Shown piece after piece: positions 10,873-34,546 of a stretch of DNA of 64,000 bases (position 1 is its first letter; every line of letters begins with the position of its first letter). A program made the position numbers and the translations under genes. Below the pieces are notes generated by a model, which saw only the letters and a program-made list of their open reading frames with translations, was not told the DNA's origin and did no database searches. This DNA is from Streptococcus marmotae. GTDB lineage: Bacteria > Bacillota > Bacilli > Lactobacillales > Streptococcaceae. Location: the NCBI RefSeq assembly GCF_001623565.1, contig NZ_CP015196.1, forward strand, positions 620,001 through 684,000, in the 5' to 3' direction.

Positions 10873-11944
10873 CGAAAGTTCTAAAATGAAGTTAGCCACT
10901 CAATGGTATGAAAAAACATCTCAGAGAGATATAATTGTAATCACCACAACAACAATTAGAAAGATTCTGAGATGCAAAACTATTATACACCAAAAAGGAA
11001 ACAGTTGACACTAGCTGAGCGTAGAATGATTGAACGTTGGCTTCAAGAAGGGTTCTCAAATCGTGAAATCGCTAGGAGATTGGCTAAAGCTCCTCAAACT
11101 ATTCACAACGAAGTCAAACGTGGTCAGGTTAGACAACAAGTGCGTAAAGGAAAATTTGAAATAATCTACTCAGCTGACTTCGCTCAAGAAGCCTATCAAA
11201 ACAATCGTAAACATTCTGTGAAGCAGGCTTCCCTAACCAAGGAACTCAAAGAAAAGATTCTGCACTACATCAAACAGAAATACTCTCCTGAGATGATGGT
11301 AAAAGCAAAAGGGATACCTGTCTCCGTCTCCACCATTTACTACTGGATTCATCATGGACACTTAGGATTGACCAAGGATGACATGCTCTATCCTCGAAAA
11401 GAGAAAACGAAGAAAAAGCAAGCGAGTCCCAACTTTAAGCCGGCTGGAAAATCGATTGAGGAACGGCCTGAAAGCATTAATCAGCGTGAGAATGTTGGTG
11501 ATGTTGAAATTGATACGGTTATTCAAACACGGGCAAAAAACGAGTGCCTGTTGACTCTAACTGATAGAAAGAGTCGTTATCAAATCATCCGACTTATTCC
11601 CGATAAGTCCGCGTCTTCAGTCAATCAAGCTCTGAAAATGATCCTCAGAGAGTATCAAATTAACTCAATCACAGCTGATAACGGGCCTGAATTCAGTCGT
11701 TTGGCAGATGTCTTTGATCCTGAGAACATTTATTATGCCCATCCTTATTCCTCTTGGGAGAGAGGAACTAATGAGAATCATAATAGACTCATCAGGCGTT
11801 GGTTGCCTAAGGGAAGCAAAAATGCGACGCAACAACAAGTCGCATTTATTGAAAACTGGATTAACAACTATCCAAAGAAGATATTGGGTTACAAATCTCC
11901 TAGAGAATTTTTACAGACTGGCTAACTTGAACTTGAAATTTAGC
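10873..11944 (+). mobile_element. IS30-family insertion sequence inserted in an MFS gene
   Basis: About 1072 bp between the 14-bp direct repeats, with one transposase gene. The ends are imperfect inverted repeats: both, read inward, reach AAGTTAGCCA after exactly 16 bases. The element splits the exporter of the Rgg/SHP locus. A remnant of a related right end lies at about 22755-22845, so the family has moved in this chromosome before. Confidence 0.85.
10972..11925 (+). CDS. IS30-family transposase
   Basis: 317 residues. The N-terminal helix-turn-helix (LTLAERRMIERWLQEGFSNR, REIARRLAKAP) is followed by a DDE integrase core: first Asp in VGDVEIDTVI, second in ITADNGPEF, Glu in SSWERGTNENHN. 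The length is normal and the frame is open, so the element may still be active. There are no accessory genes. Confidence 0.93.
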   Translation: MQNYYTPKRKQLTLAERRMIERWLQEGFSNREIARRLAKAPQTIHNEVKRGQVRQQVRKGKFEIIYSADFAQEAYQNNRKHSVKQASLTKELKEKILHYIKQKYSPEMMVKAKGIPVSVSTIYYWIHHGHLGLTKDDMLYPRKEKTKKKQASPNFKPAGKSIEERPESINQRENVGDVEIDTVIQTRAKNECLLTLTDRKSRYQIIRLIPDKSASSVNQALKMILREYQINSITADNGPEFSRLADVFDPENIYYAHPYSSWERGTNENHNRLIRRWLPKGSKNATQQQVAFIENWINNYPKKILGYKSPREFLQTG

Positions 11945-12462: not shown

Positions 12463-12540
12463 ATGAATAAAACAAAACTATGCACTCTCGCAATGGTACT
12501 ATTCGATATTATTATTGTGATTCCCTATATCAACATTTGA
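12463..12540 (+). CDS. shp: SHP-type short hydrophobic pheromone precursor
   Basis: 25 codons: a basic start (MNKTK), a hydrophobic middle (LCTLAMVLF), then DIIIVIPYINI at the C-terminus. An acidic residue followed by Ile/Val-rich sequence is the mark of mature SHP pheromones of Rgg systems; pneumococcal SHP144, as I recall it, also ends in an IVIPF-type stretch. GGAGG stands 9 bases before the ATG. Its 3' end overlaps that of the convergent rgg by 16 bases, a known rgg/shp arrangement. The expected route is export, membrane protease processing and re-import by Ami/Opp. Class is confident; the mature form is inferred. Confidence 0.88.
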   Translation: MNKTKLCTLAMVLFDIIIVIPYINI

Positions 12541-13385
12541 TAATAATCCAACTTGAAGCGTAACAGGGCTACTAGCGACTCTTCTCCGATATCTTCAAGA
12601 GATTGAATAAACTGTTCAATCTCTTTTTTATTCCTGCCATCAGTCTGCAAAAACGTTTCAACATACAGAAGGAACTTTAAAATCATTCTCTCAAATACAT
12701 CATACGGCTCTAACATTTTTTCTAATGCCGTTTTAAAAAGCAAAATATACTCATATTTTTTTCGTTCAATGACCTCTGCTATCAAATTTAACAACCCTTG
12801 TTTCAAGTATAGTTTATTATGTAACAACATTTGAAAAGCCTCTGCTTTTTCCAACAGTTCTATACCAAGAAATATCAAATCTTGGTCGTTCAACAACGGC
12901 ATCGTATTAAAAAAAATATATAACTCAAACCAAGTCCAAGACTCGATTGAATATAAATACTCCGTGACAAAATCCTTATCCTTTTGCGATAGTACGCATT
13001 GCTTATCAAGAGAGTATAAGGCATTCTTAACCACAATACTATTTAAACGATTGTAGCGAGAAGATTCCTCCTTCACCCGTAGCTCTCGTAATAATCTTGC
13101 TAACTCCTGTCCATCTTGCTTGATATGTGCTGTAGAGATTCTTTCTGCCAATTCTATATGTTCCGATTCATGATAATTGTTCAATCGATAGGCAAACTCC
13201 GAAAAGGTCATGTTTATCCCTTCAATCGCCAACAAGAGACGGTCAACAGACAACATGGATTGCCCTAGTTCAAACTTGGACAATTGCGAAGCCGTCAAGG
13301 AACCTCTTGCAACTTCTTTTTGCTTGACACCACGGGCAATACGTAATTCGCGGTAAAATTCTCCCAATTCCTTTTTTTCAATCAC
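12525..13385 (-). CDS. rgg: Rgg-family peptide-responsive transcriptional regulator
   Basis: 286 residues. An N-terminal XRE helix-turn-helix (residues about 5-60, with ARGVKQKEVARGSLTASQLS and KFELGQSMLSVDRLLLAIE) is followed by helical repeats of the RRNPP type that bind peptide pheromone. The start is a GTG at 13385 with AGGAG 6 bases upstream. It lies convergent with, and overlapping, the shp gene and is followed on its own strand by the micro-ORF/MFS unit. Cytosolic; expected to control the divergent promoters at 12331-12439. Confidence 0.92.
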   Translation of the reverse strand: MIEKKELGEFYRELRIARGVKQKEVARGSLTASQLSKFELGQSMLSVDRLLLAIEGINMTFSEFAYRLNNYHESEHIELAERISTAHIKQDGQELARLLRELRVKEESSRYNRLNSIVVKNALYSLDKQCVLSQKDKDFVTEYLYSIESWTWFELYIFFNTMPLLNDQDLIFLGIELLEKAEAFQMLLHNKLYLKQGLLNLIAEVIERKKYEYILLFKTALEKMLEPYDVFERMILKFLLYVETFLQTDGRNKKEIEQFIQSLEDIGEESLVALLRFKLDYYQMLI

Positions 13386-22886: not shown

Positions 22887-24110
22887 TTATTTTTTATTAA
22901 TAGATAAAAATAGGGCAAATATTGAAATAATGATAAATATAAACCACGTAATATTTATACTATAGACTGCTAAAGATGAAAAAAAGAAAGTTCCGACAGG
23001 GAGCGATAGAGTAAAAGTCATACCTAAAAAATTATTACTTTGCGCCAAAATATCTGAGGGTAATTTTTCCATCAGTAATGCATCTAATTTTGGTGTTGCT
23101 TTACCCATGATGTAGGCCGCAAAAAACAATATAACAATTCCCAATAACGGGCTTATAGGGAGTGAATTCACAAATCCCAGAATAATAAATAAAGAGCTAT
23201 TAATCATTAAAAGAGTTGGAAAAGTTTTTTTCGAAAAATAGTCATTAGGGGTCAAGCTTCCCAAAATAGCCCCTACCAATAATACAATTTCAACGATAAG
23301 TAGAGATTGTCCGTAACTCAAATTAGGTAAACTCTGCTTCATGAAATAGAAGTTATAAATACTACCGACTGCTCCACCCAAAGCATTTATAAATAGTATC
23401 GCCGATAATATTTTTATAAAGGAAGTATTATTTGAATTTTTAAAGATAACATCCATGTTCCTATACATTTCTTTAAATTGTTTTAATAAAGAATTAGAAG
23501 TATTTGAAACAACAACAGGTTCATGTGTGAGTTTCTTCTTATTGATTAAAAGGATAGCTGAAGCTAACAAAAATGACACTGCATTTATTATAGCGACAAA
23601 TGAAAAATTGTTGTCTGATATCGTAAGCAGCCATACCCCAAAAGATTGTCCCAAGATGTTACAAAAATATGAAGTGAATTGGCTAAAAGAATACGCTTCG
23701 AACAAATCTTCTTTCTCAATATTTTTCTGTAAAATAGGGAGACGTAAGCCTGAAGCATAATCGCTTAGTATGTCACTAGTTATATTTAGAAGACATAGCC
23801 AAGAAAACACAAAAAAGGTCTTATTTTTAATAACAAAAGCAACTAAGGAAAATAAAATTGCTTGGATAAAACCGATAGAAATCATCCAAATTGCTTTGTT
23901 TCGAGTTCGATCTGCTTTTATACCTATCCAAAATGTAAAAATTGTAGGGATAATCGTAACCATATTTGCTATAAATACCGCAAAAGTGGCTTTCGGTAAG
24001 CTAGCAGCATAGATAATAAAGACTAAATTATAGATATATGAACCGAAAGAGTTTAGCATCCGGGATATTGTTAATATTCTATATAAATTGTTTTTTAGTA
24101 ATAATTTCAT
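22887..24110 (-). CDS. MFS exporter of the lanthipeptide-like cluster
   Basis: 407 residues with about 12 hydrophobic segments of the major facilitator superfamily, with the loop motif GIKADRTRNKAIW between helices 2 and 3. The ATG lies 32 bases inside the synthetase gene, with GAGGT about 7 bases upstream, so translation is coupled. It has low GC and A/T-rich codons like the rest of the cluster. The likely role is export of the modified peptide or self-protection. Drug efflux is the alternative. Confidence 0.8.
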   Translation of the reverse strand: MKLLLKNNLYRILTISRMLNSFGSYIYNLVFIIYAASLPKATFAVFIANMVTIIPTIFTFWIGIKADRTRNKAIWMISIGFIQAILFSLVAFVIKNKTFFVFSWLCLLNITSDILSDYASGLRLPILQKNIEKEDLFEAYSFSQFTSYFCNILGQSFGVWLLTISDNNFSFVAIINAVSFLLASAILLINKKKLTHEPVVVSNTSNSLLKQFKEMYRNMDVIFKNSNNTSFIKILSAILFINALGGAVGSIYNFYFMKQSLPNLSYGQSLLIVEIVLLVGAILGSLTPNDYFSKKTFPTLLMINSSLFIILGFVNSLPISPLLGIVILFFAAYIMGKATPKLDALLMEKLPSDILAQSNNFLGMTFTLSLPVGTFFFSSLAVYSINITWFIFIIISIFALFLSINKK

Positions 24111-26055
24111 TATTTACCTCAAGATATAACTTTTTGTATTGACTTAAAACGCAAATATAATCAAATTGTAGCTTCTGGTCTTTCTCAGCTAATATCCCAC
24201 TAGCGATTAAGAGTTCTTTTGCATTTTCAAAATATTTATAACTTTTTGTTAAAGCAAAAAGTTTTAATAGTGTTTGAGCAATTCCCAACATCCCATCTAA
24301 AAAACGAGCAGATTGTGCATATTCAAAAGTTAAAGTTTCGGCTAGTTGGCAAATATCTTTTAAATATTGTTCAGAATCTATATAAAGCAGAGCTTGAATG
24401 ATTCCGGCAGTCCCATTGTACAAGTAAGGTGAAGCTGCATTTTGGGAAATTCGTACACCTTTAAATTTTCCATCAATAGTTATTAGGTTATCAAGAACAA
24501 ATTGAATGCCATTTTTGATGACTTCGTTGTCATATTTAATATATTTCAAATAGACTAATCCCCCCATAGCTCCGTTCAATCCTAAATACTTTTCTTTTTT
24601 GATTTCTTGCAACACCAGTTGTCTATCATTTAATTTTTTTTGATAGTTCTTAACTACTTCTTCTTGAGATAAAACAAAATCAATTATGTCAAGTTCATAG
24701 CTTGCAGGATTAATATTTGAAAGATCTAGAGTAAGAATCTTAGTAGTGTCTCCTCGAAAATAAATTTTAGATTTTAAAATTTCTAAAGCTGTATGTATAT
24801 CTGCATCCTCAGTGAATAAGTAATCAACCAAAACGTCCAAGTTAGAATCGATTTTTTTTTGTAACAGTAATTTTCTTAAATCTTTTACAAAAAAATCACC
24901 CTCTTTTACATGCAATTTCCCAATTAAATACAACAACATATTCCCGATTTTATGACAATCTGCAACTTTTCCGTCTATGTTATTCCACTGTTTTAGAGAT
25001 ATTTCTGAATATACTCCTGTTAATGGTTTTTGGTGTTGCATATAAGAATTTTCCATGTCTATAAAATAAACCTTAAAATTTTCACTGATTATAAAATTAT
25101 TTGGGTGTACATCATTTAAAACTATCCCTATCTCATGAAGTTTTTGTACAGTTTTTAGCAACTCTGTAATACAATTAAAAATATTATTAAAATGTAAATA
25201 ATTATTTTCTGGACAATACTGGCTATATGAAAACAAGTTCTCTTGGTTACAAAATTCTAATAAATTTTGTCCTTCTATATAGTCGTATATATAATATTGA
25301 TTTATCCATTCAGAAACTTTCTCAATTCTTGCAGGAATGCAATCTTGTATGATTTTAGACAGTCTCCATTCGTTTTCTCTCACGTTATTTTTAGTCACTG
25401 TCGTTGTACAAAGAATATTAGGACGACATTCTTTTATGACCACAATTTCGCCTGAATATTTATTCTTTGCTTTATAAACATTTCCGCCGTTACTTTGTTT
25501 CAGTAATGCTACAAGTTGATAAGTATTTCCTAAATAGGAAGGGATAAATTCCTGTTTTTCTTGTAAATCTTCAATCCAACTAGGAAGATCATAGTAATTT
25601 TTTTGGAAATCTTGCCAACATTCCCCATTAGGACCTCTTAATGTTGGAAGTCCATCCATTAATTCATTTTGAACTAATTTAATACACCCATAACGGTAAA
25701 AAATAACATTCGAATCTTTGTAATTTCTATCACTAAGAATATATACCCCACTATTTTCAGAAGGTATCAATAAATATAATTCTTCTAATAATTGTTTGCA
25801 ATGAACTCTATCTTTAGGATAAATTGTAATTAATTTCCCAGATTCTGCAGGAGATTCTTCTTCAGATAGATTATAAATTATGCTTTCTTTTGACTCTAAA
25901 TATTTAAAACAAATATCCTTAGACATTAAATAAGGTATCACTAAATAATATATCTGTTTATAATTCTCTAGAGTTCCAGAAATATGGATTTTAAAGCCAA
26001 ATTCAGGGATATCATACCAGGACGTCTCGTGATGTTTAAACTGTGAGGATTCCAT
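24079..26055 (-). CDS. LanKC-like (class III-type) lanthionine synthetase
   Basis: 658 residues. Residues 1-170 resemble the lyase region of class III/IV enzymes. A Ser/Thr kinase-like domain spans about 175-440: glycine-rich loop NGGNVYKAK, Lys208 in VVIKE, catalytic loop VLNDVHPNN (Asp315) and the metal Asp in FIDMEN (Asp333). The C-terminal 170 residues show LanC-type repeats (LGLNGAMGGL, YNGTAGI, LDGMLGI) but no zinc-binding Cys/CHG motif. Family members are often 800-900 residues, so the cyclase part is short. It would phosphorylate and eliminate Ser/Thr in a precursor and perhaps form thioether rings. The family call is sound; activity is not proven. Confidence 0.82.
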   Translation of the reverse strand: MESSQFKHHETSWYDIPEFGFKIHISGTLENYKQIYYLVIPYLMSKDICFKYLESKESIIYNLSEEESPAESGKLITIYPKDRVHCKQLLEELYLLIPSENSGVYILSDRNYKDSNVIFYRYGCIKLVQNELMDGLPTLRGPNGECWQDFQKNYYDLPSWIEDLQEKQEFIPSYLGNTYQLVALLKQSNGGNVYKAKNKYSGEIVVIKECRPNILCTTTVTKNNVRENEWRLSKIIQDCIPARIEKVSEWINQYYIYDYIEGQNLLEFCNQENLFSYSQYCPENNYLHFNNIFNCITELLKTVQKLHEIGIVLNDVHPNNFIISENFKVYFIDMENSYMQHQKPLTGVYSEISLKQWNNIDGKVADCHKIGNMLLYLIGKLHVKEGDFFVKDLRKLLLQKKIDSNLDVLVDYLFTEDADIHTALEILKSKIYFRGDTTKILTLDLSNINPASYELDIIDFVLSQEEVVKNYQKKLNDRQLVLQEIKKEKYLGLNGAMGGLVYLKYIKYDNEVIKNGIQFVLDNLITIDGKFKGVRISQNAASPYLYNGTAGIIQALLYIDSEQYLKDICQLAETLTFEYAQSARFLDGMLGIAQTLLKLFALTKSYKYFENAKELLIASGILAEKDQKLQFDYICVLSQYKKLYLEVNNEIITKKQFI

Positions 26056-26057
26056 AT

Positions 26058-26225
26058 CTATTCTCCATTGCTAATGATTTTTACAAATGGATATTTTTGA
26101 GGATTATTTACTATTTTTTTTACTTTATTCTCTATATACTGCTCAAATTTGTCTTCAAAGATATTACTCTTTAAAGACTGTTGATTTTCTGAATTACAGT
26201 ATCTTGTTAAAATTGTTTTTTTCAT
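26058..26225 (-). CDS. Small protein between precursor and synthetase
   Basis: 55 residues from the ATG at 26225, with GAGAG just upstream; a TTG at 26246 would add seven residues. It begins MKKTILTRYCNSENQQS and then becomes charged (FEDKFEQYIENKVKK). There is no signal peptide or membrane segment. Its LTRYC segment resembles LTYKC in the upstream 29-residue peptide. It ends two bases before the synthetase ATG. It may be a second precursor, a leader-binding partner or an immunity protein. I do not recognise it. Confidence 0.5.
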   Translation of the reverse strand: MKKTILTRYCNSENQQSLKSNIFEDKFEQYIENKVKKIVNNPQKYPFVKIISNGE

Positions 26226-26283
26226 TGTACTCTCATTTCTAATCAAATCCCCCTATCCAATACTGGAAAGGGGAACTTGATGG

Positions 26284-26373
26284 TTAGTTAGTGCTGACTT
26301 GACATTTGTATGTCAGCACAATATCTTGAACTGGTGCAGAATATTTGCTAGCTTCAAGCGCAAATTGTGTCAT
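26284..26373 (-). CDS. Candidate 29-residue lanthipeptide precursor
   Basis: The minus strand encodes MTQFALEASKY followed by SAPVQDIVLTYKCQVSTN. There is one Cys (position 24) and five Ser/Thr in the last two thirds, including TYKC, which could form a small methyllanthionine ring. GAGGAGG lies 8 bases before the ATG, and a TATAAT stands 35 bases upstream (26408-26413). It is the first gene of the run precursor, small protein, synthetase, exporter. It is too short for most gene finders. Its role as precursor is inferred from position, composition and signals. Confidence 0.68.
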   Translation of the reverse strand: MTQFALEASKYSAPVQDIVLTYKCQVSTN

Positions 26374-26407
26374 GTTGTATTCCTCCTCTATTGTTTTTTA
26401 CAAACAC

Positions 26408-26434
26408 ATTATAACCCAGCAAGTAGCATCTCAA
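26408..26434 (-). promoter_or_regulatory. Promoter of the candidate precursor
   Basis: Minus-strand TATAAT (26408-26413) is preceded by TTGAGA (26429-26434) with a short 15-base spacer. This sub-optimal spacing would suit activation by the adjacent Rgg protein. Confidence 0.55.
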
Positions 26435-26472
26435 AAAAAGTTTTCATATTTTCTTATTCCTTTTTTATAAAA

Positions 26473-26534
26473 AAAAGAATATTTATCTCCAATATCCTTG
26501 TTATAATAGGGAAATTGGAGATAAATATTCTTTT
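26473..26534. repeat. Perfect 21-bp inverted repeat between rgg and the precursor gene
   Basis: Arms at 26473-26493 and 26514-26534 are exact reverse complements (AAAAGAATATTTATCTCCAA-type) with a 20-base loop that contains TATAAT. On the minus strand the second arm runs into seven T, so it could terminate rgg. It also lies upstream of the precursor promoter, where a dimeric regulator could bind. Both roles are possible. Confidence 0.75.
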
Positions 26535-26557
26535 CGACAAATCCATTCCATTTGAAT

Positions 26558-27424
26558 TTATTCAAAATTTTCAAGCCATTGTTTTAGACTGTTCATATAA
26601 TAATTTGCACTATCTGTACAATTTAAAATTTTTAAAATTTCAATCGATTTCTCCATCTTTTGAATACCCATTTTTTTATTTCCCTTTATATAATCATGCT
26701 GCCCATCTGCAAACAGATATACGATTCGTAAATAGCTATCATTTTCATCAAAGAAATCATCTCTAATCTGTTTATCAAAATAAGCTGCTTTACTTAACTT
26801 TTTCTCATCTATAGCTTTAAATAAGCCATTTAAGAGAATTGTATGTATATAGTTTTTATTTGTTCTCAAATTTCCTAAAAAATCAATTTTTTGAAGCATT
26901 TCCCGAGTATATTGAAAATATAAATCTAAGGGTAACAAAGGAGCGACATCTGAAAATAATTTTAACTCAAACTCTCCCCATATCTCTATCAAAAATAAAT
27001 AGTCATATAAAAATTCAAACTCTTGAGCATTGATTTCAATGCTTTCGTTAAAGAAGCACATATGGCTTTTTATAATAATAGCATTTAATAAATTATTATT
27101 ATTTTCGTGAGCTTCATACTCATTTATCTCAGACTGGTACATTTTTTGTAACAAAGATAAATCATGCTTGCTTTTGGCATCCCATATTCTCTCCTTTAAT
27201 TTGTCATACTTTGTTGGTTGAAATCCTCTAACTAGATAAACAAATTCAGTCAGTTCTGTATGAATGTTCTCTAAAGCAATCAGCAACTTTGATATAGTTA
27301 TGTCTGATTCTCCATTTTCAAATTTGCTTAGCATTGAGTAAGAAAATTTATCTCCTGTAGCTTCTTTTAAAGAAATTTTTCTACTCATTCTTAAATCCTT
27401 AAATATTTCACCCATATAATTCAT
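26558..27424 (-). CDS. Rgg-family regulator of the lanthipeptide-like cluster
   Basis: 288 residues from the ATG at 27424, chosen because GAGGAG lies 7 bases upstream; the longer frame to 27445 would place that site inside the gene. An XRE helix-turn-helix occupies the first 60 residues (MGEIFKDLRMSRKISLKEAT, then YSMLSKFENGESDITISKLL). RRNPP-type helical repeats follow. It stands upstream of and co-directional with the precursor, small protein, synthetase and exporter genes. No SHP gene is visible next to it, so its ligand may be encoded elsewhere or be a cluster product. Confidence 0.88.
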   Translation of the reverse strand: MNYMGEIFKDLRMSRKISLKEATGDKFSYSMLSKFENGESDITISKLLIALENIHTELTEFVYLVRGFQPTKYDKLKERIWDAKSKHDLSLLQKMYQSEINEYEAHENNNNLLNAIIIKSHMCFFNESIEINAQEFEFLYDYLFLIEIWGEFELKLFSDVAPLLPLDLYFQYTREMLQKIDFLGNLRTNKNYIHTILLNGLFKAIDEKKLSKAAYFDKQIRDDFFDENDSYLRIVYLFADGQHDYIKGNKKMGIQKMEKSIEILKILNCTDSANYYMNSLKQWLENFE

Positions 27425-27641
27425 ATTTTTCTCCTCGTACATCAAAAATAATAAATTTTATAAATATCTGCCTGTCGATTATTCTCAATCGATAACGTGT
27501 CGTATATTTGTTTATCTATGCTTTGCGTTTCATAGCCAACAACATTCCGTCCCTCTTTCGCTGTATGCAACACTATTCATGTTTTGCAATGTACCTTTGA
27601 TTTTACAAAAACAATGTTGAAGGATTTTGAAATGTGAGAAG

Positions 27642-28391: not shown

Positions 28392-30593
28392 CTACCCATT
28401 TGTCCGTTTGACCGAATACACTTCTGGCACAGATTTAATCTTATCCACAACGCTAGTCAAGGTTGCTAGATTTGGAATACCAAAAGATACGTGAATCGTT
28501 GCAAATTTCATGTCCTTTGTCGGTTGCGCATTGACAGAAGAGATATTCTTGCTCGAATTGGTCAAGACTTTTAAGACATCGTTGAGAAGACCTGAACGAT
28601 TGAGACCATATATATCGATATTGGCCATATATTCCTTACTGGATGGCTCATCTTCCCACGATACATCAATCAGACGTACTTCGTAATTATCCTGACTTTT
28701 TAGATTCATACAATCCGTTCGGTGAACAGCCACACCACGTCCTTTTGTAATGTAGCCTGTAATCTCATCACCTGGTACTGGATTACAACACTTGGCAAGG
28801 CGAATCAAGAGCCCTGAAGCTCCTTCTATGACAACCCCACCTTCATGACGAATCTTTAGACTATCCTTATTGTCTTGTTTGACTTCTCCACCATTTACCA
28901 ATTCATCTGCTACCGCTTTTGCCTTGGCCCGTTCTGCTTCTCTGCGCTCTTTTTCTGTTAAACGGTTAAAGACAGCCATGGCAGAGATTTCGCCAAAACC
29001 AACAGCTGCAAAAAGACTCTCATCTGTCTTATAACTTGTTTTTTGTAGGACATCATCTAGGTGCTTGCGGTCGAGGTATTGATTAGCCACATAACCGTGC
29101 TCTTGCAAGAGCGTTTGGACCATTTCACGACCTTTGTTAATGGATAATTCCTTGTCTTGATTTTTGAAAAATTGACGAATCTTATTTCGTGCTTTATGGG
29201 TTTTGACCAAATTAACCCAGTCGCGACTAGGACCAAAGGAATTGCTACTAGTGATAATCTCGACCTGATCCCCTGTTTTTAGCTTGGTTGTCAGAGGCAC
29301 CATACGGCCGTTAACCTTGGCTCCTGTCGCCTTCTCTCCAATCTTGGTATGAATTTCATAGGCAAAGTCAATTGGCACCGAATCTTTTGGAAGCTCCCTC
29401 ACCGATCCGTCTGGTGTAAAGACATAGATTCGTTCGGTAAAAATATCATCTTTGACAGAATCAACAAAGGTCTGCGCATCTCCTGCGTCCGCCTGCAATT
29501 CAATTAAATTATTAATCCATTTGAGTTCTTGTTGACTAGCAGTAGCCTTTCCACCACGCTTATAGGCCCAGTGCGCTGCAACCCCGTATTCTGCCACCTG
29601 ATGCATCTCTGCCGTACGAATTTGAAATTCAATCGGCCCCTTAGGACCATAAACTGTCGTATGAATCGACTGGTAGCCATTTGCCTTAGGATTGGCAATG
29701 TAATCCTTAAATCGCCCCGGCATCGGACGCCACAACTCATGAATGTACCCCAACATCGCGTACACATCACTTGGCGTTTCCATGATACAGCGAATGGCAA
29801 TCAAATCATAAAGTTGATCAAAGCGCTTCTTCTTGTCGTGCATTTTCCGATAAATGGAATAAATATGCTTGGGACGACCGTAAATATGACCAAATAGATG
29901 ATGCTCATTAGCATAATCACGAATTTTATCGACCACCTCATTAACCAAGGCCTCGCGTTCCCTACGCTTTTCCGTCATGAGATGCGTAATTTTATAGAAT
30001 TCCGTCTCATTCAGATAGCGAAAGGCCATATCTTCTAGTTCCCACTTAATAGAAGAAATCCCCAAACGATGGGCAAGCGGTGCATAGATTTCCATTGTTT
30101 CACGTGAAATACGCTCTTGCTTTTCTTTACGCAGATGCTTCAAGGTCCGCATATTATGCAAACGGTCTGCCAATTTCACCAAGATGACCCGCATATCCTT
30201 TGACATGGCAATCAGCATTTTCCGGTGATTTTCAGCCAGTTGCTCCTCGTGCGACTTATATTCAACCTTACCGAGCTTGGTTACTCCGTCTACAATCATT
30301 CGCACATCAGAGCCGAACTCTGCTTCCATTTCATCCAGCGTAATATCGGTATCTTCGACCACATCATGCAAAAAGCCACAAGCAACCGTTACTGCATCAA
30401 GCTGTAAACCCGCCAATATTCCAGCAACTTGAATGGGGTGGATAATGTAGGGCTCACCTGATTGACGAAATTGCTGACTATGTGCCTCAACAGCATAATG
30501 CAATGCTTTTCGAACAAAAGCCACATCTTCTTCAGGCATATACTGGGCCGTCAGAGCAATGACATCTTCTCCTGTTAGATTGATTTCTTTCAT
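28392..30593 (-). CDS. rel: Bifunctional (p)ppGpp synthetase/hydrolase
   Basis: 733 residues. The HD hydrolase domain comes first ([12 protein letters not shown]). The RelA/SpoT synthetase domain follows ([20 protein letters not shown], then [15 protein letters not shown]). Next are the TGS domain ([20 protein letters not shown]), the helical/Zn-finger-like region ([19 protein letters not shown]) and a C-terminal ACT domain. It makes and degrades the starvation alarmone and can sense stalled ribosomes. Followed by dtd. Confidence 0.95.
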
Positions 30594-30646
30594 TCCTATT
30601 CCTCTTCATGCTGTTTATTGTTCCTATTTTACCATTTTAGTTGAAA

Positions 30647-30776
30647 AAGAAAAAGGCTCAAACCCTATCTTTAAGCCATAATTAAAAAATACAGCGATAA
30701 CCGCTACCTATCCTTCGTGAGGGTATTGCTATCAATCTTTTGTATCTTTGCTTATTCCAATGAGTGGCACCTTTCC
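30647..30776 (+). pseudogene. Decayed copy of the promoter and 5' end of the 34010 gene
   Basis: AAGAAAAAGGCTCAAACCCT and TTTGTATCTTTGCTTATTCC match 33946-33990 and 34040-34130 with a few changes. The section between, including the ATG region, is shortened. It leaves no open frame. The two copies bracket accessory locus 3, so the locus may have entered by a duplication or recombination at this gene. From 30777 to 30910 no feature is seen. Confidence 0.65.
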
Positions 30777-30914
30777 CAAAGAAGCGAGGAAGGGATTCTG
30801 CCTGTTACTTTGCGGTTGCCTATTGCTCTTGGGACAATGAAGACGCCAATGACTCACTAGCGGACGAGAAGTTAGAAACGTTGCACTTATTTTTGCAATT
30901 TATCATAAAAAATA

Positions 30915-30966
30915 TTGACAAAAGTTAAATTTTGTTTTAATATTTAAGTGTGGATTTAACTTTGTC
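30915..30966 (+). promoter_or_regulatory. Promoter with inverted-repeat operator for accessory locus 3
   Basis: TTGACA (30915-30920) and TAATAT (30938-30943) are spaced 17 bases apart, a strong promoter. The -10 is enclosed by inverted repeats AAAGTTAAAT (30921-30930) and ATTTAACTTT (30954-30963). With one base of offset the match extends to GACAAA/TTTGTC. This position suits repression by a dimeric winged-helix protein, probably the ArsR-type product of 32720. Confidence 0.75.
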
Positions 30967-31010: not shown

Positions 31011-31061
31011 ATGGTAACGAAACAAGACGATGTCATTATCATTATTATTGTAAAGAAATAA
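31011..31061 (+). CDS. 16-residue hydrophobic peptide gene
   Basis: The ORF reads MVTKQDDVIIIIIVKK. AAAGGAG stands 7 bases before the ATG, and a strong promoter lies 70 bases upstream. The acidic pair followed by Val/Ile repeats recalls mature SHP pheromones, but there is no leader, no rgg nearby and a basic C-terminus. It directly precedes an ABC exporter and an ArsR-type regulator. It could be a leaderless signal, a microcin-like toxin or a regulatory leader peptide. It is too short for standard gene finders. Translation is likely from the signals; function is unknown. Confidence 0.65.
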   Translation: MVTKQDDVIIIIIVKK

Positions 31062-31091
31062 ACGAATCATTTTTTGGTTAGATCTACATTC

Positions 31092-31129
31092 AGGCAGCGT
31101 TAACAGTCATTTTTAATTCTGCCTATTTT
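31092..31129 (+). terminator. Attenuator-like hairpin between the peptide and the exporter gene
   Basis: AGGCAG (31092-31097) pairs with CTGCCT (31119-31124), followed by ATTTTT. It lies 30 bases after the peptide stop and just before the exporter ribosome site. It would lower exporter expression relative to the peptide. Confidence 0.55.
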
Positions 31130-31144
31130 TAATTGGAGTACAAA

Positions 31145-32736
31145 ATGAAAATCTATAAATATAAACATGTTCCAACAGCAATTCTTTCAACAGTCGTTTT
31201 CTCCTTGCTAAGTGTTTTATTGTCTTACTCGTTATCTCTATTAGTGGTTCAAAATCAGCAAAAACTGCTGCATAACTTCCTCATTGTCTTTTTATATATG
31301 CATTGCATTCCTTCTCTTTATTTTGGAATCTTAGATCAGTCGCAAAAGCTGAAACCCATCTGCAAGACACCTTTGCCCAACAGGCTGACATTCATTTTGC
31401 AAGTATGAATTTCGAAACTTTTAAAGCAAAAGACCACGGAGAACATTTATCTCTATATATTAATGATATTCCAAAAATGATTGAATTAACGCTTGATAAG
31501 TATATTTCGCGTATTAAAATGGCAACTACTGCTTTAGGGAGCTTTTTTGCTTTAATGACTATACATTATTCACTTGCTCTAATAGCAATTGTTGCATTTC
31601 TACTAATGTCATTTGTTCCGAAACTTTTTCAATCTAAACTCAGAAACTATATTTCTGGATTGCAAAACGAAAAAGCTATTTACACGAGTAAAATGAGAGA
31701 GCTTTTACAAGGTTACACGACTTTTTTTGAAAATATCGCCTTTTCAATATTCTTTAAAAAATCAACTATTGCAACAAAGAAATATACAGATTACCAACTC
31801 AAAACTCAAACCTTTACAGCATCGATGAGTGCCTGCCTTACCTTTGTCAATGGTTTCGTATCAGCTATTGCAGTAGCTTATGTTTCTTATTTGGTTTTAA
31901 AAAATCGAGTAGAGGTGGGAGCACTACTTGCCGTTCTTTCTCTTATCCCTAGTTTCGGCAGTTCAGTTATTCAATTTTTGTCTGAGGGAGAATTTTATAA
32001 ATCAGGACTGTCATTATTTAATGAAACCTTTCATTTTGCAAAAGGAAACTATAAGCTGCAAGATTCTTCAGATATTCAGATCAACGAGCATACAATATTA
32101 GCCTCTCCTTCTCCACTTTCTATATCTGTCAAAAATGTTAGTTTACCTTTCGAATCACAACTTTCATTTCCAAATTTGACATTTCTACCTGGTAAAAAAT
32201 ATGCTATAATGGGGGAAAGTGGTTCTGGAAAGTCTAGCTTAATTAAAGCAGTGATTGGAGAAATTGAAAACTACTCTGGTCAAATTCTTATCAATAAGGC
32301 TGTAAAGAAACCTTCTCAACATATTTTTAATAGTGTCAGTTATATGAATCAAGAAACTTTTTTATTTAATGATACTATTAAAAATAATATTGACTTACTA
32401 GGTAATATGACAGATGATGAAGTGCAAAACCTACTAAACAACGTGGGTTTGAATAACTTTTCTCCCAACTCGATTTTGCAGGAAAATGGGAAAAATTTAT
32501 CCGGCGGTCAACGTCAAAGATTAGCATTTGCTCGTGCTGTTGCACGAAAAAAAGACATACTCATTCTAGATGAGCCGACCGCCAATCTTGATGCTCAGTC
32601 TGCCAGTACTCTTGAAAAGTTAGCAACTAAATCAGCTAAGACTGTTATTATGATAACCCATCGTATGAATGAAGAACTTCGTTCAACTATAGATGAGGTA
32701 ATTACTATTAGGAGTAAAAATGAATCCCCACGATAA
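31145..32736 (+). pseudogene. ABC exporter (membrane plus ATPase), frameshifted near 31295
   Basis: The first frame from ATG 31145 (TTGGAG 6 bases upstream) encodes the N-terminal membrane segments and then leaves the family near TTTTTATATATGCATTG. A second frame continues ALHSFSLFWNLRSVAKAE and runs to 32736. Removing one TA unit, or adding one base, would join them into about 530 residues. The rest is a normal ABC exporter: membrane helices, Walker A GESGSGKSSLIKA, signature LSGGQRQRLAFARA, Walker B ILILDEPTANLD. A TTG at 31303 could start a shortened protein. It probably exports the upstream peptide. Confidence 0.82.
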
Positions 32737-33709
32737 AATAGTAGACTTTTGTCTCTCTCTAATCTACGCAGGAAAAAATCTCGAGGACTATAAAGAATAT
32801 AATGACGTTGTAAAAATAGTAGATAAGACGTATTTAAGTGAAATAAAAAAATATCAATTTTTTTTACAAAATAACACTAGATACATCGAATTTTTTGTCA
32901 ATGAAGAATTTAATCTCCTATCTTATATATTAGTCGTTCAACAAATTACTAGCTTTGAAGAGCTGTCCTCGTTTCTAAGGGACGTCTCGAAAGATCAATT
33001 ATTTCAAATCATTTCTACCCATATACTTGATAAGGAAACTAAATTTTCAACAAAAGATCTGTTGGACGTTTCGTTGGAAGAAAAAAATAAATGGAAATTA
33101 ACCGAACTATATTACCATTATCCTCAAATCAAGAAAAAACTGTTGGAAATTATTGAACAATCGTGGAACCAATACTTACAAGTTGTTACAAATTTAGAAA
33201 AAGATTTTTATTCTAAAATCATTCAAGAAAAGAAACGACTTGCAGATAAATCTAGCGAGTTATATGCTGTCGTTTTTCAACATTATATTTCAGAAAACGA
33301 CTATGCTTCTGCCCAAAACAACCATCTTTTATTAGTCTCATTCCAAAAGATACTTTTTATAAAACTTGAAAAAGACACTACTTTAGGATTAGGTCTCTTT
33401 ACATATGATTATTTAAACTTTATTAAATCGATGAATTCTTACAGTCAGGAGAGTAGAGAAAAGTTTTTAAAGATTTTGGCAGACCCTACTAGATACGGAA
33501 TCTTGAAACTAATTATTGAAGGAGTCTCGACAAATAAAGTAATCGCTAACAAATTTGGAATTTCTTCTGCAGCTGTGAGTTATCAACTGAAAAATCTGCT
33601 CGATAATAAAATTATCATTGTAGAACCTGGCGGTAGAAAATACTCACTGAATAAGGATTTACTAAAACAGATTATTTCAGGTATCGAGAAAGAACTATTT
33701 CTAGACTAA
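32720..33709 (+). CDS. ArsR-type winged-helix regulator with a long helical N-terminal domain
   Basis: 329 residues. The last 90 form an ArsR-type winged helix (FLKILADPTRYGILKLIIEG, then NKFGISSAAVSYQLKNLLDN and the wing IIVEPGGRKYSL). The first roughly 240 residues are charged, predicted helical and unlike any domain I recognise; they may sense the peptide or another ligand. The usual ArsR metal-binding Cys box is absent. It overlaps the exporter gene by 17 bases, so it belongs to the same transcript. It probably binds the operator at 30921-30963. Confidence 0.8.
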   Translation: MNPHDKIVDFCLSLIYAGKNLEDYKEYNDVVKIVDKTYLSEIKKYQFFLQNNTRYIEFFVNEEFNLLSYILVVQQITSFEELSSFLRDVSKDQLFQIISTHILDKETKFSTKDLLDVSLEEKNKWKLTELYYHYPQIKKKLLEIIEQSWNQYLQVVTNLEKDFYSKIIQEKKRLADKSSELYAVVFQHYISENDYASAQNNHLLLVSFQKILFIKLEKDTTLGLGLFTYDYLNFIKSMNSYSQESREKFLKILADPTRYGILKLIIEGVSTNKVIANKFGISSAAVSYQLKNLLDNKIIIVEPGGRKYSLNKDLLKQIISGIEKELFLD

Positions 33710-33940: not shown

Positions 33941-34009
33941 ACCAAAAAGAAAAGGTTCAAACCCTATCTTTATGCTATAATAAATAAAAATACTCTAAAG
34001 GAGCAAGCT

Positions 34010-34546
34010 ATGAATCAGCCAATCATTGTGACAAGCGAGAAAAGCCGCTATGTTTCATTGAGTGTTCTATCTTTCGTGATGACATTGCTGTCAAACTTTT
34101 GTATCTTTGCCTATTCCAATGAGTGGCACCTTTCAGTTCTGTCCTTGGTGTTCACTGTTTTTGGGCTGATTGGAGTTGTTTTGTTCGGCTGGTTCTTTGT
34201 ATGTTATACAAAATGCGTCTTTGTTAAGCAACTCCCTCCCATTCTCGTTGTGGATGATAAGGGCATAACAGACAAGTCTTCTGCCATTTCGATTGGCTTT
34301 ATTCCATGGGAGGATATTACTTATATCCGCCTCAAACCCCACCTCAATCAGACTTATATTTCTGTTACCCTAACAGACAACGACAAGTATTTGTCCAAAA
34401 TGAACGTTTTTCAAAAATATAGTTCCAAGGCAAACCTCAAAATGGGCTTTCCTTTGGTCAATATCGTTTTGATGACTAGCAACCAAACTCCTCAACAGGT
34501 TTACTCTGCGATTCTTCATCAATACGGAGATAAGTTTATACAATAA
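34010..34546 (+). CDS. Membrane protein of the STM3941-like type
   Basis: 178 residues: two hydrophobic segments (about 20-40 and 45-65) and a soluble C-terminal part (ILVVDDKGITDKSSAISIGF, PWEDITYIRL) of the STM3941/PH-like type. AAGGAG lies upstream of the ATG and TATAAT at about 33976. A decayed copy of its 5' end lies at 30647. Its function is unknown; the family name is a recognition by pattern, not by search. Confidence 0.6.
   Translation: MNQPIIVTSEKSRYVSLSVLSFVMTLLSNFCIFAYSNEWHLSVLSLVFTVFGLIGVVLFGWFFVCYTKCVFVKQLPPILVVDDKGITDKSSAISIGFIPWEDITYIRLKPHLNQTYISVTLTDNDKYLSKMNVFQKYSSKANLKMGFPLVNIVLMTSNQTPQQVYSAILHQYGDKFIQ

Follow-up and report, generated by a model that had tools for sequence, protein, structure and literature searches.

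Organization of the locus and its promoter region

The window, by which we mean the whole 64-kb stretch of Streptococcus marmotae DNA that was analysed, carries a compact unit in which a promoter, an inverted repeat, a micropeptide ORF, a hairpin, an ABC exporter gene and a regulator gene follow one another on the + strand. The unit and its immediate surroundings comprise the following features:

28392-30593, - strand: relA (named by reading), left of the unit
30645-30775: partial 5' copy of the 178-residue gene, forming a direct repeat that flanks the unit (repeat search)
30776-30906, + strand: remnant of the 3' end of a transposase gene with terminal sequence (similarity to other streptococcal loci)
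30915-30943, + strand: sigma-70-type promoter, TTGACA-17-TAATAT
30921-30963, + strand: putative operator AAAGTTAAAT-N23-ATTTAACTTT, with perfect arms, spanning the -10 element
31011-31061, + strand: micropeptide ORF MVTKQDDVIIIIIVKK, 16 codons (AAAGGAG site, core compared with shuffles, counterparts at two loci)
about 31092-31124, + strand: hairpin between the micropeptide ORF and the exporter gene, followed by ATTTTTAATT (RNA folding, weak alone)
31145-32736, + strand: gene of a half-size ABC exporter, membrane domain plus ATPase, frame broken near 31294
32720-33709, + strand: gene of an ArsR-like regulator, 329 residues, N-domain (~1-243) plus C-terminal winged helix (Pfam, structure model)
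34010-34546: 178-residue gene, right of the unit

A preliminary description of this DNA had placed a strong promoter and an inverted-repeat operator at the head of the unit, and both are borne out. The promoter matches the consensus at 10 of 12 positions, as compared to 12 of 12 at a paralogous locus of the same genome (L013, the paralogue) and 11 of 12 at a locus of another Streptococcus (L029 of genome G272). With up to three mismatches allowed, the operator pattern occurs only once in the window, against a chance mean of 0.04 (100 shuffles, four of which gave one match). Streptococcus merionis (L012) has an inverted repeat with the same N23 spacing and one mismatch in its arms, and half-sites that look alike, at identical spacing, were recognized by eye only in G587, a genome from another family of the order. 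At the G272 promoter no comparable inverted repeat was found, the best arm there being 8 with one mismatch.

The micropeptide ORF and its counterparts

The 16-residue ORF and its good ribosome site were likewise confirmed, with AAAGGAG lying ahead of MVTKQDDVIIIIIVKK. The paralogue has a 15-codon ORF, MKTLGWKIKIIIEKD, at positions 2726-2773 of its locus and also behind an AAAGGAG site, while the G272 locus has MVNPLKKVIIIVVVVE behind an AAGGAGG site. All three ORFs are 15–16 codons long and place Ile or Val at residues 8, 10, 11 and 12; their first seven residues and codons differ from locus to locus, and none of the three peptides has a hydrophobic stretch in residues 1–7, ahead of this core. 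Dinucleotide shuffling of the window, paralogue and G272 leaders produced a core-bearing ORF with a ribosome site 0, 0 and 1 times per 4000, the core having been defined after the three peptides were known; any ribosome-site ORF of 10–30 codons arose in 70, 235 and 213 of 4000. Both strands of the window together hold 13 ATG ORFs of 10–30 codons with a ribosome site, and MVTKQDDVIIIIIVKK is the only one that bears the core. The G272 leader contains a second ribosome-site ORF, MYLILLNTVS, without the core. Just past the G272 regulator gene (L029, 5294-5323) lies a 9-codon ORF, MIVVVIIVL, which by eye has no ribosome site and is possibly a chance occurrence.

The preliminary description took the unit to be self-contained and proposed looking for the ORF beside related exporters, its loss next to orthologous exporter-regulator pairs being named as a refutation. 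Across the six exporter loci that were read, the outcome was mixed: three have the peptide, one has only a similar start and two have no such ORF. The similar start belongs to S. merionis, whose ORF MATKQENVIVMNCYPTFKAGVKILLHI resembles the window peptide over residues 1–10 (6/10 identical, the others similar) and then diverges. In G587, the exporter and regulator genes stand directly behind the promoter, as judged by eye, with no ORF; in G250, the exporter has neither the ORF nor an adjacent regulator. Thus the exporter and regulator exist also without the peptide, and what stands of the self-contained unit is that it recurs and that its peptide carries no leader. Eight loci at which a distant relative of the regulator adjoins an MFS pump gene served as a control. 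None of them has a comparable micro-ORF with a ribosome site, whereas four of the six exporter loci have one, complete or as its start. For this control, ribosome-site ORFs of 5–40 codons were sought within 400 bases ahead of the pump ORF, whose start was taken as the first ATG, GTG or TTG (possibly too far upstream at L017); the pump gene falls into two ORFs at L015 and is interrupted by an inserted transposase gene at L020. Taken together, these comparisons show that the micropeptide ORF recurs beyond one locus and is probably real.

An attenuator had also been claimed between this ORF and the exporter gene. A hairpin can indeed be folded there, but it barely beats shuffled sequence (z -1.2; 23 of 200 shuffles fold equally well), and a terminator scan listed no + strand site at its position. 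The same region gives z -4.88 at the paralogue and z -2.04 at G272, and in S. merionis it shows no fold beyond chance (z +1.23). The scan found no terminator at the paralogue or G272 either, and no T run follows the strongest hairpin, that of the paralogue.

The exporter and the regulator

The exporter gene is present as described, but not as a single reading frame. It is split between two overlapping ORFs, 31133-31408 and 31303-32736, that are not in the same frame, and a tblastn search with the intact 530-residue exporter of S. merionis placed its residues 1–50 and 51–530 in two frames with a switch at ~31294, so that the first 50 residues are severed from the remainder in the DNA as sequenced. 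The frame switch falls within or close to a TTTTTATATA tract (31280-31300), at which slippage or misreading during sequencing is plausible; the break may be such an error, a variable tract or a true lesion. Intact exporters have 530 residues in S. merionis and 533 at the paralogue, and the G272 exporter has 521. The second piece of the window exporter matches PF00005 and PF00664, and no peptidase domain was found in this protein. Among NCBIfam models, CydC scored best (163.5 bits, cut-off 329) and the peptide-export models scored lower, all listed models remaining below their cut-offs. The window locus combines an intact peptide with an exporter frame that is broken as sequenced, and this copy may rely on the intact paralogue or may be decaying.

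The regulator gene overlaps the exporter gene by 17 bases. The earlier account of a 329-residue ArsR-type regulator with a large extra domain agrees with our searches: the families that pass their cut-offs (PF12840, PF01022 and PF13412) all fall on the C-terminal winged helix, while the 243-residue N-domain matched no Pfam family at E <= 0.1. A structure model of this domain is confident (pLDDT 92.3, pTM 0.90) and had no significant match in the PDB, a result compatible with a TPR-like fold. The metalloregulator model NF033788 reached 41.3 bits, below its cut-off of 55, and no GntR family is among the matches listed for this protein. Rgg_C (PF21259) did not match it, though it did match two true Rgg proteins encoded in the window. 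Regulators at other loci are similar in size, with 334 residues at the paralogue (30% identity to the window protein) and 331 in G272.

The two Rgg genes belong to other neighbourhoods of the window. One (12525-13385, - strand; Rgg_C E 1.4e-33) is convergent with, and overlapped by, an SHP-like ORF, MNKTKLCTLAMVLFDIIIVIPYINI (12463-12540, + strand), which has a GGAGG site, and the two are likely an ordinary SHP/Rgg pair. The other lies in a cluster at 22887-27445 on the - strand that looks like an Rgg-controlled lanthipeptide type:

26558-27445, - strand: Rgg gene (Rgg_C E 1.8e-45)
24079-26055, - strand: RamC/LanKC-like protein (RamC_N E 2e-33, plus a kinase domain)
22887-24110, - strand: MFS-like transporter (by eye)

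Insertion site and distribution

The unit, inserted between relA and the 178-residue gene, looks acquired. The direct repeat that flanks it is 90% identical between 30708-30775 and 34067-34134 and 84% identical between 30645-30689 and 33944-33988. The adjoining transposase remnant, which we take to be of the IS30 family, ends in 31 bases (30876-30906) that are found at 94% identity in four streptococcal genomes. Two further loci match in this region: L048 at 30799-30832 (82%) and 30870-30915 (85%), and L049, in which the match adjoins a transposase-like frame, at 30801-30859 (69%) and 30870-30939 (76%). G010 has an empty site, in which relA and the 178-residue gene (79% identity) are adjacent with nothing between them. 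This empty site and the transposase remnant point to transfer as one unit. The preliminary description mentions neither the remnant and repeat nor the broken exporter frame; the paralogue lies outside the window and was thus beyond its view. The unit has a G+C content of about 28–34%, as compared to about 40–50% in the nearest 2 kb on each side, and its S. merionis counterpart sits between homoserine-dehydrogenase-like and pseudouridine-synthase-like genes (named by reading). A complete-looking IS30-type transposase gene is present elsewhere in the window (10972-11925, + strand); PF13936 passes its cut-off there and rve falls below.

The family is scattered and rare in the genomes and proteins searched, and the exporter seems commoner than the regulator. 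Regulator relatives were found in 9 of 147 Streptococcus genomes at E <= 1e-10, and the ABC-paired type in two of them (G000, which is the genome under study, and G021); the eight other regulator loci that were read lie beside MFS genes, the gene kinds being assigned by reading. With the paralogue regulator as query, 3 of 284 genomes matched at E <= 1e-12. The regulator was further found in 2 of 395 genomes at the order level (the own genome and G587), in 1 of 105 in the family of G587, and in the own genome alone among 398 at the class level. The exporter was found in 4 of 279 Streptococcus genomes at E <= 1e-110 and, at E <= 1e-130, in 1 of 289 genomes of the class (the own genome), at most five candidates per genome being scored. 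In a large protein set, the regulator queries retrieved 6 and 5 proteins, own included, and the exporter retrieved at least 34 at E <= 1e-60 from the 7993 candidates with most shared words. Since exporter relatives outnumber regulator relatives in this way, the pairing may often be missing; our locus counts exclude metagenome contigs, and with them the DNA around the regulator clusters P0002, P0004-P0006 and P0008-P0011 and around the majority of the 34 exporter clusters. Entries named Alloscardovia venturai, Gemella, Longicatena and S. merionis are among the exporter relatives.

Three side observations concern these relatives. The A. venturai entry (P0017, 51% identity) suggests inter-phylum transfer or contamination, this species being an actinobacterium. 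Loci L014-L021 represent a larger family of ArsR-like proteins whose N-domain is related to that of the window regulator and whose genes are paired with those of MFS permeases. In G015, G071 and G125, the regulator-MFS pair follows rsmE (named by reading), and rsmE is also near the unit in the window.

A model for the unit and its alternatives

We read the unit, with moderate confidence, as a mobile cassette that regulates itself and serves to make and export a leaderless peptide; a self-repressing ArsR-like sensor would keep the operon in check, with the peptide as the probable inducer. The ArsR-like protein would repress its own operon by way of the inverted repeat; the peptide would be produced abundantly and exported either at full length or reduced to its hydrophobic C-terminal part; and the peptide, bound within the cell or after re-import, would lift the repression, whereby exporter and peptide would turn on jointly. 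Such a cassette would operate like PSM/Pmt/PmtR, or as a leaderless pheromone with an ArsR-type receptor. A product rather than a passive ORF is suggested by the arrangement of the genes, by the strength of promoter and ribosome site, by the hairpin behind the first gene and by a core that is conserved while its flanks vary; three loci share both the gene order and the position of the core. Further support comes from the shuffle counts, the contrast between the six exporter loci and the eight MFS loci, the promoter scores, the inverted repeat kept in S. merionis, the precedents of PmtR (PMC5080381) and of leaderless communication peptides (LCPs; PMC10518010), and the empty site with the transposase remnant. 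The reading is weakened by the intact peptide beside a broken exporter in the window, the missing inverted repeat at G272, an exporter that belongs to no peptide-export family and the excess of exporter over regulator relatives. Also against this stand the peptide-less loci (G587 and G250), the S. merionis locus, where the start alone of the ORF accompanies an intact exporter and regulator, and the layout of short ORF, hairpin and exporter, which is equally that of a leader-peptide attenuator.

The ORF could accordingly be a regulatory leader: a drug or starvation would stall the ribosome in the Ile/Val run, the downstream hairpin would open and the efflux pump would be expressed, at the level of transcription or translation. 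We consider this scheme, which is like that of bmrB-bmrCD and in which the ArsR-like repressor would form a second layer of control, the main rival, possible though somewhat unlikely. A core at codons 8–12 lies close to the point of action of stalling leaders such as ErmCL. Hairpins are present at three loci, two of them strong; the more distant regulators of the family adjoin MFS pumps; and ribosome-mediated attenuation of an ABC exporter has a precedent (PMC4191407). However, at the four loci folded the ribosome site of the exporter gene was never fully paired (0.29–0.63 unpaired) and showed no consistent shift when the peptide ORF was masked, and pairing of the hairpin 5' arm with the upstream leader stayed at the level of shuffles (fractions 0.13, 0.95 and 0.36), both being in silico tests for which the analyst picked the arms and start sites. 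The paralogue hairpin without a T run, the lack of terminators at the paralogue and G272, and G587, which retains the promoter (by eye), exporter and regulator without a leader ORF, also speak against it. Since these RNA tests are weak negatives, they leave the probability of a leader where we have put it.

We think it improbable that the exporter and regulator simply serve to expel a foreign compound or a peptide made by a competitor, a form of orphan immunity with the ORF an accessory or, in some copies, a decaying passenger. The two exporter loci without the ORF, the one with an altered ORF and its absence beside all eight MFS-paired regulator relatives would fit such a role, but the core, length and ribosome site have been retained at three diverged loci. 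An intracellular toxin that acts on membranes or aggregates, of a type I-like kind and with the exporter as relief, is suggested by the VIIIIIV core flanked by charged ends; this we regard as very improbable, for a core of 5–8 residues is short for a membrane span and Rfam, at gathering scores, gives nothing here. Hardly credible, finally, is a chance reading frame: short ORFs are common and this one is absent or altered at some loci, but the shuffled leaders and the 12 core-less ORFs of the window speak against it.

If the cassette reading is right, the peptide may act as a signal or a weapon of a kind new among bacteria. More specifically, and as a rather doubtful proposal, the unit could represent a non-RRNPP signalling class, in which a leaderless pheromone of 15–16 residues, its own ABC exporter and an ArsR-type repressor, sensing through a mostly helical domain without recognised relatives, make up a cassette that moves between streptococci. 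No description of such a micropeptide-exporter-ArsR unit appeared in the portions of the literature that our search returned. Were the cassette to function as proposed, export and sensing of a leaderless peptide would become testable in one cassette, and an ArsR-type protein that bears a new domain would join the known cytosolic peptide sensors. Attenuation would instead mean that drugs induce the pump by way of an unusual stalling core of Ile/Val, a less surprising result though a useful one.

Comparison with known systems

SdpR/SdpI of Bacillus subtilis provides an ArsR-type autorepressor tied to immunity against a peptide toxin, and SdpI is not an ABC exporter. The window winged helix scores 34.1 bits against the SdpR model NF033789 (cut-off 100), and the 79 positions of that model leave no place for a 240-residue N-domain, unlike the window regulator. 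PSMs are small leaderless peptides that form longer amphipathic helices, and Pmt is a four-gene exporter; by contrast, the present unit has a single exporter gene of half size, its peptide has a beta-branched core, and the peptide is encoded within the operon. The PSM/Pmt/PmtR system of Staphylococcus aureus and this unit nevertheless share small peptides without a leader, a dedicated ABC exporter and a cytoplasmic repressor, here putative, of the exporter operon. PmtR is released by the peptides that its exporter carries (PMC5080381). It is GntR-type, whereas the regulator here is ArsR-type.

The bmrB-bmrCD operon of B. subtilis, for which PMC4191407 describes ribosome-mediated attenuation of an ABC exporter, likewise has a short ribosome-site ORF and a stem-loop right before the exporter. 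Here hairpins occur at three loci, with no clear alternative-structure switch in the folding tests; a repressor gene is adjacent, and an inverted repeat lies at the promoter.

The preliminary description had likened the peptide to SHP pheromones. The likeness is limited to the core, and to the window peptide, in which Ile/Val-rich sequence follows acidic residues (compare DIIIIVGG, a term found in Rgg papers); the other two peptides lack the acidic-then-Ile pattern (GWK-IKIIIEKD and LKK-VIIIVVVVE), and the regulator is not Rgg-type. Membership in SHP/Rgg was ruled out, there being no Rgg_C in the regulator and no hydrophobic N-terminal leader in the peptides. LCPs, the group of SIP-RopB, come closer in gene form: PMC10518010 describes ultra-small ORFs that lie beside a regulator, have a ribosome site and encode a hydrophobic product lacking any secretion signal, and the unit shares with them such an ORF next to a regulator operon. 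According to the same paper, LCPs have mostly 8–10 residues and an RRNPP-type receptor, SIP transport bypasses the canonical peptide machinery, and the mechanisms of LCP export and import are reported as unknown; here the peptides have 15–16 residues, the regulator is ArsR-type with no Rgg_C match, and an ABC exporter adjoins. This unit thus has a part in common with each of the Rgg/SHP, LCP and Pmt systems but lacks a defining feature of each.
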